A DNA stretch of 64,000 nucleotides from Myxococcota bacterium (GTDB taxonomy: Bacteria; Myxococcota; XYA12-FULL-58-9; JALHOP01): NCBI GenBank assembly GCA_022842935.1, contig JALHOP010000006.1:186001-250000 (forward strand), read 5' to 3'. Shown piece by piece: positions 49,734-56,203 of the stretch (its first letter is position 1; every line of letters starts with the position of its first letter). The notes below the pieces were generated by a model. The model ran no database searches. It was not told where the DNA came from and was given only the letters and a program-made list of their open reading frames with translations. Position numbers and translations under genes: made by a program.

Positions 49734-50009
49734 ATGTGTCGCAGCATCAAGATCCTCTTTAACTTCGACCCGCCCGCCACCGACGCGGAAGTCCACGCCG
49801 CGTCATTGCAGTTCGTCCGCAAGCTTTCTGGCTTCACCGCACCATCGAAGGGCAACGAAGAGGCCTTCAACGCGGCGGTCGAAGACGTTACGCGCGTCGC
49901 GCGCAAGCTCGTCGATTCTCTGAAGACCAACGCCGCTCCCAAGAATCGCGCGACCGAGGCAGCCAAGGCAAAGGCTCGCGCTGCCGTTCGTTTCGGCGGA
50001 CGACCATGA
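49734..50009 (+). CDS. DUF2277 family protein
   Basis: A 91-residue protein opening MCRSIKILFNFDPPATD, the usual start of DUF2277 proteins, with LQFVRKLSGFTAPSKGNEEAF following. The ATG at 49734 has GAGG about eight bases upstream. Its stop overlaps the YeeE/YedE start by four bases. The family has no known function; a link to sulfur transport is suggested only by the overlap. Confidence 0.85.
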   Translation: MCRSIKILFNFDPPATDAEVHAASLQFVRKLSGFTAPSKGNEEAFNAAVEDVTRVARKLVDSLKTNAAPKNRATEAAKAKARAAVRFGGRP

Positions 50010-50428
50010 GCTTTTTGACTTCGCTCGCGGGTGGTGTCGTCATCGGGCTCGCCTCGGCTCTGCTCCTGCTCGTTCATGGGCGCGTCGCTGGTGTCAGCGG
50101 TATCGTTGGCAGGCTCGTCGATGGTCGCCGCGACACCGTCGCTATCGACCTCGCTTTCGTCGCAGGGCTCATCGGCGCGGGCGTCACCTTCGGTATGGTC
50201 GCGGGCGATGCGATCGGCCCGGCCATCATGACGCGCTGGTCGTCGGTCATCGCGGCGGGATTGTTGGTGGGATTCGGCACCCGAGTCGGCAATGGCTGCA
50301 CCAGTGGACACGGCGTATGTGGGATTGGACGGGGTTCGCCGCGTTCGCTTGTCGCCACGCTAGTTTTCATGGTCACCGCCGGTGTCACCGTCTTCGTCGT
50401 GCGACACGTCCTGGCGGTGACTCCGTGA
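50006..50428 (+). CDS. YeeE/YedE-family sulfur-transport protein, N-terminal half
   Basis: A 140-residue membrane protein with four hydrophobic segments and the motif GNGCTSGHGVCG near residue 98, which in the thiosulfate importer TsuA-type family holds functional cysteines. It corresponds to one half of a full-length YeeE/YedE protein. It is encoded as a separate gene whose stop overlaps the second half's GTG. Two-gene arrangements of this family are known. Confidence 0.85.
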   Translation: MSFLTSLAGGVVIGLASALLLLVHGRVAGVSGIVGRLVDGRRDTVAIDLAFVAGLIGAGVTFGMVAGDAIGPAIMTRWSSVIAAGLLVGFGTRVGNGCTSGHGVCGIGRGSPRSLVATLVFMVTAGVTVFVVRHVLAVTP

Positions 50429-50829
50429 AGGCCGTCAGCGCCATGATGGCCGGGCTGCTCTTCGGTGCGGGTCTGTGTATCTCGGGAATGACTTGGCCAT
50501 CGCGGGTCGTCGGCTTCCTCGACGTCGCCGGTGCCTGGGACCCGAGTCTTGCCTTCGTCATGCTCGGCGCGGTCGGCACCTACGCTGCGAGCGGGTATTG
50601 GATCCGGCGGCGCGGAGCACCACTTCTGGCGAGCTCCTTCGAGCGGCCTGCGGCCTCGACGCTGGACCTGCGCTTGCTCGGCGGCTCTGCCATCTTTGGC
50701 GTCGGGTGGGGGCTGTCGGGATATTGCCCGGGCCCAGCCATCGTTAGCATCGCGGCGCTGGCTCCGGTCACGCTCGTGTTCATGGTGGCCGTCATCGTCG
50801 GCATGCTTGCCGCGAAGCGCATCGTGTAA
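50425..50829 (+). CDS. YeeE/YedE-family sulfur-transport protein, C-terminal half
   Basis: About 134 residues from a GTG at 50425 that overlaps the previous stop (GTGA). It has four hydrophobic segments with cysteines in GAGLCISGM near residue 18 and SGYCPGPA near residue 104. Together with its partner it would form the sulfur-compound pore. It completes a three-gene overlapping unit with the DUF2277 gene. Confidence 0.85.
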   Translation: MKAVSAMMAGLLFGAGLCISGMTWPSRVVGFLDVAGAWDPSLAFVMLGAVGTYAASGYWIRRRGAPLLASSFERPAASTLDLRLLGGSAIFGVGWGLSGYCPGPAIVSIAALAPVTLVFMVAVIVGMLAAKRIV

Positions 50830-50996: not shown

Positions 50997-52703
50997 ATGA
51001 AGAGTGGTAGCGCTTGGTGGGCCATCTTCGCGGTCACGTGGGCCGGGCTTGCGGGCTGCGGCGACGACGTGCGCACCGGTGTCTTTGTGGGTGGGCCTGT
51101 CATTGGCCTCCGCTACGAAACACTCACGCGTTCGGGGCTAACCGACGAGCGTGGCAAGTTCGAGTACGCCGACACCGAGACGGTCACCTTCACAGTCGGT
51201 GGAGTCGTGCTCGGAACCGCACGGGGCGCGCAGCGGATCTCTCCGTTCGACCTTTTTGGAATCGTACCACCCACGGATCCGGCCGAGCTACGCGCTCTAC
51301 TTCGCGACAACGTCCTCACCGAATTCGACCGGGCCGCGAACGTCGCGCTCTTCCTGCAGGCCCTCGATGCCGACCGCGACCCGACCAACGGCGTTGACGT
51401 GACCAGCTCAGGAGCGACGCTCGCTGGAGTCTCCCTAGGGTTCGACGAGAGCTTCGCCTCCTTCGCGTTCGGCTCGTTCGCTCGCTTTGCCGCGATGCAT
51501 CCCGGAGTCGATCGGAACATCGACGTGGCTGCGGTTTTGCCCACCCTGTACGCGGCGCTAGCGATTGAAGTCGCGGGCCACGTTCCCGCGACGAACAGCA
51601 TCGACTACGGCGATGACGGACGTATCGATGCGAACACGACGTTCTCCGTCGATAGCCTTGGGCGTGTCGTCTTGTCGCGGAGCGATAGTAGCGGAAACGG
51701 CGTCGTCGATCGGGAGGAAAGCATCGTCTACGGCTCCCGTGGCCGCGCCATCAACCACGACTTCCGCAGCGACCCAAACGAGGATGGTGTCTTCGAGCGC
51801 ATCGAGTCAGAGGCAGTTGCCTTCGATAGCGATGGCTACAGGACGAGCAGGACTGTCCAGGACACCATGAACGGCGTCGTCGGCCTCAAGCAGGTCTTCA
51901 CCTTCACACACGACAGCCGTGGCAACGAGCTCACGTCTCTGCAGGAGAACGACAATGGCGGTAACGGCTCCATCGAGAGTCGGCGCTCCGAGGCACGCGT
52001 CTACGATCTCGCGGGTAGGCGTCTTAGTAATCGCGTCGAGACCGACACCAACGGGGACGGGGCGGCCGAGAGGATCAAAACCGAGACCTTGGTCTGGAGC
52101 GCCGATGGGTTCGTCGCCGAGGCGGTGACCGACGCCGACGACGATGCCGATGGCTCAATCGACTCTCGCCTGGTGGTCACCTACACGCGTGACCCAGCCG
52201 GTCGAGCTCTCGAGCAGAATGACGAAGCTCAGAACGGCGGCGTCGTGGTCAGCCGAGGTCACTCTGCTTTCACCTACGATGGTAACGGCAACAATCTGAC
52301 CAACGTCTACGAAGAAGATAGCAACGCCGATGGTACCATCGATTACCGCTCGACTTACACCGCGACCTACCGCGAGGACGGTCGTCGGCTCGACGAGATA
52401 TTCACCGTCGATAGCGACGCTGATGGCGCGCATGACTTTGTCGGTACGACCACGCGGGTCTACGACGAGCTCGCCAATCTGATTTCCGTGATCTCGGAGA
52501 ACGATAACGGTGGCGATGGCGTCATCGACACCCGCAGAACCGTCGAAAGCACGTACGATGCGTCGGGCAACGAGGTTTCTCGGTTGAGTCGCGCAGACGC
52601 CAACAACGACAGCACGTTCGATAGCCAAACGCGAGAAGTGACGACATACTCCGAGATCGCGGATGGCCTCTATCGGCTCGTCTTCGAGCTTGTGGGCAGT
52701 TGA
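50997..52703 (+). CDS. Repeat lipoprotein 1 of a tandem family of three
   Basis: A 568-residue lipoprotein; the ATG at 50997 has GGGAG upstream and opens a signal ending in LAGCGDD. Residues about 28 to 200 form a domain shared with the next two genes (TGVFVGGPVIGLRYE, RSGLTDERGKFEY, ISPFDLFGI, FDRAANVALFLQALDAD). The rest is about eleven repeats of roughly 30 residues, each with a Ca-loop-like DTNGDGAAE or DNGGDGVID and a YDxxG-type turn (RVYDLAGRRLS, STYDASGNEVS). It ends in EIADGLYRLVFELVGS, matched in gene 2. It is probably surface-anchored and Ca-stabilised; no function is known. Confidence 0.78.
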   Translation: MKSGSAWWAIFAVTWAGLAGCGDDVRTGVFVGGPVIGLRYETLTRSGLTDERGKFEYADTETVTFTVGGVVLGTARGAQRISPFDLFGIVPPTDPAELRALLRDNVLTEFDRAANVALFLQALDADRDPTNGVDVTSSGATLAGVSLGFDESFASFAFGSFARFAAMHPGVDRNIDVAAVLPTLYAALAIEVAGHVPATNSIDYGDDGRIDANTTFSVDSLGRVVLSRSDSSGNGVVDREESIVYGSRGRAINHDFRSDPNEDGVFERIESEAVAFDSDGYRTSRTVQDTMNGVVGLKQVFTFTHDSRGNELTSLQENDNGGNGSIESRRSEARVYDLAGRRLSNRVETDTNGDGAAERIKTETLVWSADGFVAEAVTDADDDADGSIDSRLVVTYTRDPAGRALEQNDEAQNGGVVVSRGHSAFTYDGNGNNLTNVYEEDSNADGTIDYRSTYTATYREDGRRLDEIFTVDSDADGAHDFVGTTTRVYDELANLISVISENDNGGDGVIDTRRTVESTYDASGNEVSRLSRADANNDSTFDSQTREVTTYSEIADGLYRLVFELVGS

Positions 52704-52757
52704 TTGACGAAGGTGCGGTGCGAGCGCGCAGCGCGACATTGAAAGGCGAGGTCCTCC

Positions 52758-54470
52758 ATGAACAACAAGCTTCTTGCGTTGCCACTCATCGTTGCTGCCG
52801 TGATCGGTTGCAGCGACGACAAGAAAGAAATCAAGACCGGCGTCTTCATCGATAGCGCCGTCCAGGGCCTCCACTACAACACGGCGTCGCGCTCGGGCCT
52901 GACTAGCGCAAAGGGCGAGTTCCAGTACGAACCTGGAGAGACAGTCACCTTTTCGCTCGGCGGTATCGAGCTTGGCTCGGCGCCTGGCGCCGACCGCATC
53001 ACTCCCTTCGACCTATTCGGGATCGCTCCCCCGTCCACTGAAGCGGATGCCCGAGCTGCCATGCGAGCCCGCGAAGTCGTCGACGGCTTCGACCGCGCCG
53101 CCAATATCATCTACTTTCTGGTTGCGCTCGACCGGGACGGCAATCCGGACAACGGCATCGACCTCGTTGGCTGGCACGAGACCCTGGCCGACGCGACCTT
53201 GAGCTTCGATGTGGACGCGAGCAACTTCGTCTACCGGAACTACGGACGCTTGAGCGCGCGTTACGAGGGCATGGCTCTCTGGTTGCCGGTAGAGCGCCCC
53301 CTCGCGCACTTCTATCGGACGGTTGGCATCGTCGTGCCTGCACAAGCCGTGGCGACTCTCACTGTCGACGAGGGCGACGACGGGACCATCGAGGAGCGCA
53401 CTTTTTATCAATACAATAGCCGCGGTCAGGAAACCGAGCGCGAGCGCGACGAAAATGGCGACGGCACGATCGAAGAGCGCAATGTCACCACCTACGACGC
53501 GGCAGGCAATGGGCTCAGCTACGTCTACCTGCGGGACAATGATGGCAACGGGACATTCGAAAGCCGAAACGAATATACCAACTCATATGGCACCGACGGC
53601 CGATTTCTCACGGATGGCTTTCAACAGTTCGCAAACGACCTGGTGACGTCGCGCTCCACGCGCACCTATACCTATAGCAGTCGAGGTCAGCTGGTCGTTG
53701 TCGAGTTCGAGAACGACACCAACGCAGATGGCATCGCCGACACGCGAACTCGAGAAGTGACGACGTATGACGAGCGTGGTTACCTCGCGACGATCCAGAC
53801 TGAGAGCGATGTGCTCGCGGACGGCACCGTCAACAGCGTGCAGCGACAGACATTTGTCTACGACGCGCAGGGGTATCAGGTCTCCGGCGCTTACGAGATT
53901 GATGCCGAAAACGACGGTGTCGTGAACACGCGCACGGTAGGTACCTATCGTCGCGACGATCAGGGACGCGAGCTGACGTATACGGCGGAGACATTCAACA
54001 ATCTCGGCGTTCTCACCCGTCGTGAAGTACGCACAACCGAATATAACGCCCGTGGCGACGACATCGCGTCGAGCTTCGAGTCCGACTCGAACGCTGACGG
54101 TGTCATCGACGCGAAGAACTCCAGCCAATACACCTACGACGATGCCGGGCGCACCATGGTGGGCGTGTTCTCCTTCGATTCGGACGGCGATGGCGTCGCG
54201 AACCAGCAAGGCACCGACACGTTTGCGCGCGCGCCCGACGGTCAGGTCGTCACGTCCATTCAGACTCGCGATGGCAACGGGGACGGCGTCATCGACCAGC
54301 GAACGACTCGAACGAATACCTACGATGCCGTAGGTCGCATGACGAGTACCTTTACCGAGCGCGACACGAACGGTGATGGCGTCACTGACGAGCGCCGTCG
54401 AACGAGCGTGACCTTCATTGAGATTGCTGACGGCATCGAGTATCTCGCTTACTCCATCATCGCGGACTGA
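52758..54470 (+). CDS. Repeat lipoprotein 2 of a tandem family of three
   Basis: A 570-residue lipoprotein with signal ending IGCSDDKKE; GGCGAGG lies upstream of the ATG. The N-terminal domain matches its neighbours (TGVFIDSAVQGLHYN, RITPFDLFGIAPPS, ALDRDGNPDNGIDL). From about residue 205 to the end there are about ten repeats with a near-constant 31-residue period, such as DENGDGTIEERN then TTYDAAGNGLS. Two units (near FANDLVTSRS and FNNLGVLTRR) have lost the Ca-type loop. It lies 54 bp after gene 1 and 8 bp before gene 3, so one operon is likely. Confidence 0.78.
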   Translation: MNNKLLALPLIVAAVIGCSDDKKEIKTGVFIDSAVQGLHYNTASRSGLTSAKGEFQYEPGETVTFSLGGIELGSAPGADRITPFDLFGIAPPSTEADARAAMRAREVVDGFDRAANIIYFLVALDRDGNPDNGIDLVGWHETLADATLSFDVDASNFVYRNYGRLSARYEGMALWLPVERPLAHFYRTVGIVVPAQAVATLTVDEGDDGTIEERTFYQYNSRGQETERERDENGDGTIEERNVTTYDAAGNGLSYVYLRDNDGNGTFESRNEYTNSYGTDGRFLTDGFQQFANDLVTSRSTRTYTYSSRGQLVVVEFENDTNADGIADTRTREVTTYDERGYLATIQTESDVLADGTVNSVQRQTFVYDAQGYQVSGAYEIDAENDGVVNTRTVGTYRRDDQGRELTYTAETFNNLGVLTRREVRTTEYNARGDDIASSFESDSNADGVIDAKNSSQYTYDDAGRTMVGVFSFDSDGDGVANQQGTDTFARAPDGQVVTSIQTRDGNGDGVIDQRTTRTNTYDAVGRMTSTFTERDTNGDGVTDERRRTSVTFIEIADGIEYLAYSIIAD

Positions 54471-54478
54471 GGCCCATC

Positions 54479-56203
54479 ATGAACCATCGCTTTTTTTCTG
54501 TTGCAGTCGTCGCGGTTGGGCTCGTCGCGTGCAGTGATGACGGCGACGACGGCGCTAATGTCCTTACTGGCGTCTTCGTCGACAGCCCAGTCGCCGGACT
54601 GCGCTTCACGACGCCAACCCGCTCGGGTCTCACCAACGCGGCCGGCGAGTTCAAGTACCTCGCAGACGAAACGGTAGCCTTCTCTGTTGGCGCCGTCGTC
54701 CTTGGCTCGGCTTCGGGCAAAGCTATCGTGTCACCCTTCGACTTGTTCGGGCTGACGCCGCCGTCGACGGAGCGCGACCTACGCACCGCGATCGCACAGC
54801 CCGGCGTCGACGACTTCGACAGGGTACTCAACGTCGCCATGTTTCTGCAGTCTCTCGACGGTGACGGCGATCCGGGCAACGGCATCGATCTGGGCACCTG
54901 GGACGAGAGGCTCGCGGCTGCGACCATCGACTTCGAGGTCGAACACTCCGTCTTCATCGAAGAGGTCTCTACGCTGTCCGGGCTCTACCCGGGGGTCAAC
55001 CGTCAGGTCCAAGCAACTCGCGTCTTGGGCAACCTCTATCGCGGTCTCGGGATCGGCTTTCCCGTGCACATGCCGGCGGTCATCCACGAAGACGAAGACG
55101 GCAACGGCTCAGTGGATTCGGTTCAACGTCGGACTTACGACGCCGTTGGGCGTGAGACGCAACGGGCGAGTGACTATCAGGCCAACGGCGTCGACGATGA
55201 CATCGAAGAGACCACCTACGACGCGCAAGGGCGTGCCGTAAGCTACGTCAACCGTTATGACGGAGACGACGATGGTTCCCTCGAGACGCGTGGGGTCACG
55301 ACGTACACCTTCGACGTGAGCGGCAACAGTGTCTCCAATGTCTTCGATCGCTACACCAATGAGGTGCTGACCCGGCGCGTCACCAACACGCAAACGTTCG
55401 ACGCGTTCGGCAATACACTGACGCGGGTCAGCACGACCGACGAGGATGCCGACGGCGTCATCGAGGTGAGGTCCACGCGGACTAGCACATACAACGATCT
55501 GGGCAAGGTGCTCACCTATCGCACGGAGACCGACAGTGACGCCGACGGTGTCACCGACGCGATCGATAGCGTGGTCACAACGTATGGTATCGACGGCTTC
55601 AGCGTTGGCGAAGTAAGTACGCGCGATAGCGACGCGGACGGGGTTGAAGACACGCGCTACACGTTCACCTTCACGCGAGACGCCAAAGGTCGAATCCTCA
55701 CCCGCACGACACAACGCGATGAGGGCGGCGTCACTCTCTCGCGCAGTCTGCAAACGTTTACCTACAATGTCGCCGGTCAAGAGCTCACGTCCGTCCTCCA
55801 GAACGACAGCAATGGCGACGGCGTCGTCAACAGCGTTCGCAGCAGCACCTACACGTACAACGCGAACGGCAACCTGCTCACCTACGTGAGCGAGTCCGAC
55901 AGCGACGGTAACGGCACCGTCAACAGTCGTCGCACGACTGTATGGACCTATACGAACGGCAAGCCACAGACCGAAACCGACACCGAAGACGGCAACGTCG
56001 ACGGGACGATCGACTATCGCCGTACCGTCCAGATGACCTACGACGACAGTGGCAACCTCATCGAAGAGTTCGCGAGCACCGATGACGATGGCGACGGTAC
56101 GCCGGATAGCGCGCGGCGAAGCTCGTATGAGTACACGACCGTCGACGATGTTGGCGCGGCACTCGAGTCCCTCGGCCTCAAGGGCGGGGCAATCCTGATC
56201 TAA
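54479..56203 (+). CDS. Repeat lipoprotein 3 of a tandem family of three
   Basis: A 574-residue lipoprotein with signal ending LVACSDDGDDG; a GAGG overlapping the upstream stop serves as ribosome-binding site. The N-terminal domain is again the shared one (TGVFVDSPVAGLRFT, VSPFDLFGLTPPS, SLDGDGDPGNGIDL). The repeats follow the same 30 to 31-residue plan (DSNGDGVVN, DSDGNGTVN, YNANGNLLT). The C-terminus (ALESLGLKGGAILI) differs from those of genes 1 and 2. A methyltransferase follows after 28 bp, but nothing links it functionally. Confidence 0.78.
   Translation: MNHRFFSVAVVAVGLVACSDDGDDGANVLTGVFVDSPVAGLRFTTPTRSGLTNAAGEFKYLADETVAFSVGAVVLGSASGKAIVSPFDLFGLTPPSTERDLRTAIAQPGVDDFDRVLNVAMFLQSLDGDGDPGNGIDLGTWDERLAAATIDFEVEHSVFIEEVSTLSGLYPGVNRQVQATRVLGNLYRGLGIGFPVHMPAVIHEDEDGNGSVDSVQRRTYDAVGRETQRASDYQANGVDDDIEETTYDAQGRAVSYVNRYDGDDDGSLETRGVTTYTFDVSGNSVSNVFDRYTNEVLTRRVTNTQTFDAFGNTLTRVSTTDEDADGVIEVRSTRTSTYNDLGKVLTYRTETDSDADGVTDAIDSVVTTYGIDGFSVGEVSTRDSDADGVEDTRYTFTFTRDAKGRILTRTTQRDEGGVTLSRSLQTFTYNVAGQELTSVLQNDSNGDGVVNSVRSSTYTYNANGNLLTYVSESDSDGNGTVNSRRTTVWTYTNGKPQTETDTEDGNVDGTIDYRRTVQMTYDDSGNLIEEFASTDDDGDGTPDSARRSSYEYTTVDDVGAALESLGLKGGAILI

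Follow-up and report, generated by a model that had tools for sequence, protein, structure and literature searches.

Three tandem lipoproteins of a Myxococcota bacterium combine a calcium-type loop and a YD turn in one repeat unit

The best-known YD repeats are those of teneurins and of closed shells that surround toxins. In RHS/YD proteins, these repeats form a closed hollow shell with an RHS-associated core (PMC6425310). Loops of the type Dx[DN]xDG are Ca2+ sites found in varied contexts, strand-loop-strand among them; homologues may differ in having either a short loop without the motif or a longer loop bearing the site, and sites arise by loop lengthening (PMC3123361). In the lipoprotein SslE, the NT2 region comprises residues 230–425 of the mature protein, and the N-terminal region was described as restricted to SslE and homologous proteins (PMC8881592). 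Among the papers searched, none joins the RHS repeat and the thrombospondin type 3 repeat.

In the window (the whole stretch of 64,000 nucleotides analysed from a Myxococcota genome), three co-directional genes with intergenic gaps of 54 and 8 bp were found to encode lipoproteins sharing an N-terminal domain of about 180 residues (N-domain; TGVF, PFDLFG, DGxPxNGI), as the preliminary description had reported. The features are as follows.

50997..52703, + strand: gene 1, lipoprotein of 568 aa with N-domain, 12 units and C-terminal cap
51069..51572, + strand: gene 1 N-domain, match to profile A3
51603..52688, + strand: gene 1 repeat region, 12 units starting at residue 203; no proper loop in units 4 and 8
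52758..54470, + strand: gene 2, lipoprotein of 570 aa with the architecture of gene 1; modelled (pLDDT 90.9, pTM 0.81)
52830..53336, + strand: gene 2 N-domain, match to profile A3; in the model a small beta-sandwich (26–76) and helices (95–189)
53367..54455, + strand: gene 2 repeat region, 12 units starting at residue 204; strands and loops placed on the model
54479..56203, + strand: gene 3, lipoprotein of 574 aa with the architecture of gene 1 and a divergent C-terminus
54560..55060, + strand: gene 3 N-domain, match to profile A3
55091..56173, + strand: gene 3 repeat region, 12 units starting at residue 205

The gene arrangement is compatible with a single transcript; promoter and terminator scans gave no match above chance. 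By sequence, all three proteins carry a signal peptide with a lipobox Cys, as expected of bacterial lipoproteins. The lipoboxes of genes 1, 2 and 3 read LAGC, VIGC and LVAC, and their Cys (residues 21, 18 and 18) is invariant in the alignment and the sole Cys of each protein. A contaminant contig was not favoured, since GC and GC3 of the three genes match those of their neighbours and a fourth copy lies on another contig. Nor was a phage origin: a scan of viral contigs gave no relative and the three genes had no PHROG match; a 27-residue-unit relative used as tblastn query gave four weak phage matches. Upstream (50006–50829), two overlapping genes encode a Sulf_transp-like (YeeE/YedE) half and a DUF6691 protein, which together probably make up a split transporter for sulphur compounds.

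Self-identity within the three repeat regions was maximal at a lag of 31 residues (0.19, 0.22, and 0.23), above the maximum of 0.15 obtained in 300 shuffles per region. The period of 30–31 residues proposed earlier was thus retained, whereas the proposed count of about ten repeats was not: by segmentation, every protein has 12 units and 11 YD-type turns. Unit length is 27–30 residues early in the array and mostly 31 later. The fusion of a DxNxDGxxD loop and a YDxxG turn in the same unit type was confirmed, with about 10 loop-bearing units per protein. The loss of the loop in some units, also seen before, was found to be non-random, as the same two units, 4 and 8, are without a proper loop in each of the three genes. 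The C-terminal cap is, as described, shared by gene 1 (EIADGLYRL) and gene 2 (EIADGIEYL) and not by gene 3 (YTTVDD); it recurs as LEIADGLRYL in gammaproteobacterial homologues and, weakly, as LIANGARHI in the fourth paralogue. Between genes, units at equal positions were 33% identical compared with 27% at unequal positions, which indicates that the array was built first and whole genes were duplicated afterwards. A higher-order duplication of four units was considered and rejected, as unit identity at offset 4 (0.294) hardly exceeds that at offsets 1 and 3 (0.290 and 0.291).

The AlphaFold2 model of gene 2, based on a 16-sequence alignment (pLDDT 90.9, pTM 0.81), showed the repeats as one continuous antiparallel beta-meander of 24 strands, preceded by the N-domain as a small beta-sandwich and helices. 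Eleven five-residue turns of the YDxxG type alternate with 10 DxNxDG loops, mostly of eight residues, and turns of two or five residues replace the loop exactly at the two loopless units. A ribbon of 24 strands at 4.8 Å would be about 115 Å long. Among PDB matches of this model (Foldseek), the 24 best were all YD proteins, i.e., Rhs effectors, TcB-TcC, teneurins and mosquito SGS1 (E about 1e-14), followed by two 'porin-like' Bacteroides proteins and OspA. The TM-scores of these 24 matches were only 0.08–0.21, so the likeness lies at the level of the hairpin and not of overall shape, and a closed shell is not indicated. The regular repeat fold that the preliminary description made a condition was obtained; a closed YD-shell was not supported. 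A separate relative, L024, which has 27-residue units, was modelled with the same meander plan and seven-residue strands, with lower confidence (pLDDT 73.7, pTM 0.48), and its best PDB matches were likewise RHS/YD proteins.

The preliminary description had allowed for an existing family model covering the whole architecture; none was found in Pfam or NCBIfam. The three proteins gave no match in hmmscan. Gene 3 is borderline: in a laxer search including neighbours it reached 22.6 bits with PF05593 RHS_repeat (cut-off 22), and its score with TIGR01643 was 15.1 (cut-off 15.8). The 27-residue relatives matched PF05593 above cut-off (1e-14 to 1e-20). Elsewhere in the same genome (G000:C16:4355-6169; L001–L007) there is an open frame of 2493 aa whose classical RHS repeats exceed the Pfam cut-off. 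The identity of the best structural matches would agree with membrane-anchored RHS-type toxin delivery, the YD repeats wrapping a C-terminal effector. We nevertheless regard such a cargo shell as highly improbable, because a short cap closes the sequences, neither an RHS-associated core nor a C-terminal effector was found after the repeats, and 12 units with a match confined to the hairpin are all that is present.

On balance we consider it probable that the three proteins are calcium-stiffened YD beta-ribbon lipoproteins of outer-membrane type, serving as stalk or adhesin. By sequence and model, one of the two turns of the RHS/YD hairpin meander is enlarged to a DxNxDGxxD loop in most hairpins. 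In the proposed mechanism, the loops would bind Ca2+ as do other strand-loop-strand Dx[DN]xDG sites, and about ten ions in a row might stiffen the open 24-strand ribbon, which the lipid anchor would hold to the outer membrane and from which it would project. The 31-residue unit may be read as the commoner 27-residue unit with two more residues per strand, which widens the ribbon and leaves its plan unchanged. Gain and loss of loops in a YD meander are in keeping with the loop-lengthening pattern described for calcium sites (PMC3123361). Another YD variant was observed in L081 (G002:C98, 687–2435, - strand), a lipoprotein-like protein of a member of the same order. Its second turn is lengthened to the type DGxxxxGGADGxxD, which suggests that loops are inserted preferentially at the second YD turn.

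The loops could instead be Asp-rich turns that either drift or persist because they aid solubility, in a ribbon that works without metal. Their loss at units 4 and 8, and for the most part in the fourth paralogue and some relatives, is in line with this. We consider it unlikely, since across deep divergence the loops keep the pattern of known sites (PMC3123361), with Asp at position 1 in 31/36 units, Asp or Asn at position 5 in 33/36 and Gly at position 6 in 33/36. The fourth paralogue, with about four loops, and relatives with only one or two show that calcium is not essential to the fold throughout the family.

The core of the N-domain (its first 60 residues or so) matched SslE structure 23px with an E-value of 9e-8 over about 60 residues, inside the NT2 range, and the helical half was unmatched. 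The three proteins thus contain an NT2-like module. They are not members of the SslE/AcfD family: no M60 metalloprotease domain was found and NF037974 gave at most 23.4 bits against a cut-off of 800. SslE NT2-like N-domains were also seen on several unrelated C-terminal parts (L027–L051), e.g., a CocE/S15 hydrolase in Streptomyces (L027). As judged from these sequences, the NT2-like N-domain is an unnamed mobile module that also occurs outside SslE.

This resemblance bears on the location of the proteins. A periplasmic calcium buffer, or a scaffold for envelope proteins, would suit the acidic repeats (net charge −36 to −38 per repeat region), and Gly or Ser at +2 of the lipobox agrees with sorting to the outer membrane but is silent on leaflet or side. 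SslE, however, is a surface-exposed lipoprotein secreted by a T2SS, and the annotation of a cyanobacterial relative reads putative surface protein, so that a periplasmic role appears improbable. The genome encodes a T2SS secretin, which makes export of the three proteins possible. Returning to the calcium-stiffened ribbon, we infer calcium binding from the loop sequences and adhesion by analogy, and surface exposure is likewise presumed.

The preliminary description had viewed the gene family as recently expanded, which did not hold. The three paralogues are 35–38% identical at the protein level and differ at 0.62, 0.52 and 0.62 of fourfold sites, compared with 0.66–0.67 expected at saturation; such low identity and near-saturated synonymous sites show the family to be old. 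The fourth paralogue (G000:C10:128990-130585) contains the N-domain and a repeat region. In an N-domain tree, one clade for the four copies was neither shown nor rejected (p-AU 0.385).

Nor is the fused unit peculiar to the three genes. It is sparse in the phylum (11/195 genomes), mostly in 27-residue lipoproteins with other N-termini, and the N-domain type of the three genes was found only in the four genes of the window genome among 58 genomes of the phylum. In the minus-strand frame of one relative with 27-residue units (L017), a long Gly-Asp dipeptide tract lies between the lipobox and the repeats. Fused 27-residue units were also found in an Alteromonadaceae MAG and in Gloeothece verrucosa WP_013334359.1, the cyanobacterial plasmid protein with the surface-protein annotation; 31-residue spacing was seen in a Tolypothrix plasmid protein. 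Loop spacings fall mostly into two classes, 27 and 31.

The whole architecture was recovered in gammaproteobacteria. A whole-protein profile matched 45 of 146 genomes centred on the Alteromonadaceae MAG, many through no more than the N-domain and several over the full length. The alignment covers L102, L103 and L106 from end to end (best profile match 26–561, E 4e-95), and all three keep the 12 units, the missing loop in unit 4, the EIADG cap and the 31-residue loop spacing. One genome (G280) has two homologue copies close together. In five gammaproteobacterial genomes (L122–L126), the homologue lies in a shared neighbourhood of SelD-related oxidoreductases, a CBS protein and a CitMHS transporter, and in 3/5 a convergent TonB-dependent receptor adjoins it. 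This neighbourhood was not found in the window, and therefore no function was drawn from it. Transfer between Myxococcota and gammaproteobacterial groups is likely; the N-domain tree gives neither donor nor direction.

Tentatively, and with considerable doubt, we suggest that these proteins may represent a so far undescribed class of anchored stalks, made as open calcium-laddered YD beta-ribbons, with about ten Ca2+ along one edge, width quantised by two residues per strand, stiffness tuned by loop gain and loss, and spread over distant phyla by gene transfer. If this is confirmed, the YD hairpin would also serve to build an open ribbon that is stiffened by metal and held by a lipid anchor. 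Loop-rich, loop-poor, 27-residue and 31-residue members would form a natural series on the origin and stabilising role of calcium loops in beta-sheets. In addition, the three genes place an SslE NT2-like module outside SslE.

Compared with known systems, the three proteins share with RHS/YD proteins (PF05593, TIGR01643; Rhs effectors, TcB-TcC, teneurins) tandem hairpins in which a YDxxG turn joins two strands within one long antiparallel sheet, as seen in the AlphaFold2 model and the Foldseek matches. They differ in the enlargement of the second turn to a calcium-type loop, in having only 12 units, and in lacking a core domain and a closed shell, the shape being judged from TM-scores only. With the Dx[DN]xDG sites of the integrin FG-GAP calcium blade, thrombospondin type 3 and EF-hand they share the loop consensus and the strand-loop-strand setting; they have no propeller, and with loops between strands and the lipobox Cys alone, neither the helix-loop-helix nor the disulphide-linked calcium core. 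With the SslE/AcfD lipoprotein metalloprotease (NF037974; PDB 23px) they share the NT2 core of about 60 residues. The 27-residue lipoproteins L013–L017 and WP_013334359.1 have the same fused unit, and L013–L017 also a lipobox, but the unit is 27 instead of 31 residues long and the N-termini are different; WP_013334359.1 has RTX-like and bluetail C-terminal parts besides. The gammaproteobacterial proteins L102, L103, L105, L106 and L108 share both N-domain and 31-residue loop spacing, at about 30% identity and with fewer loops, a longer C-terminal tail and a conserved neighbourhood. The architecture as a whole is uncatalogued, yet it belongs, as an unnamed variant, to the YD-repeat lipoproteins and occurs in distant phyla; it is neither a new kind nor recent.
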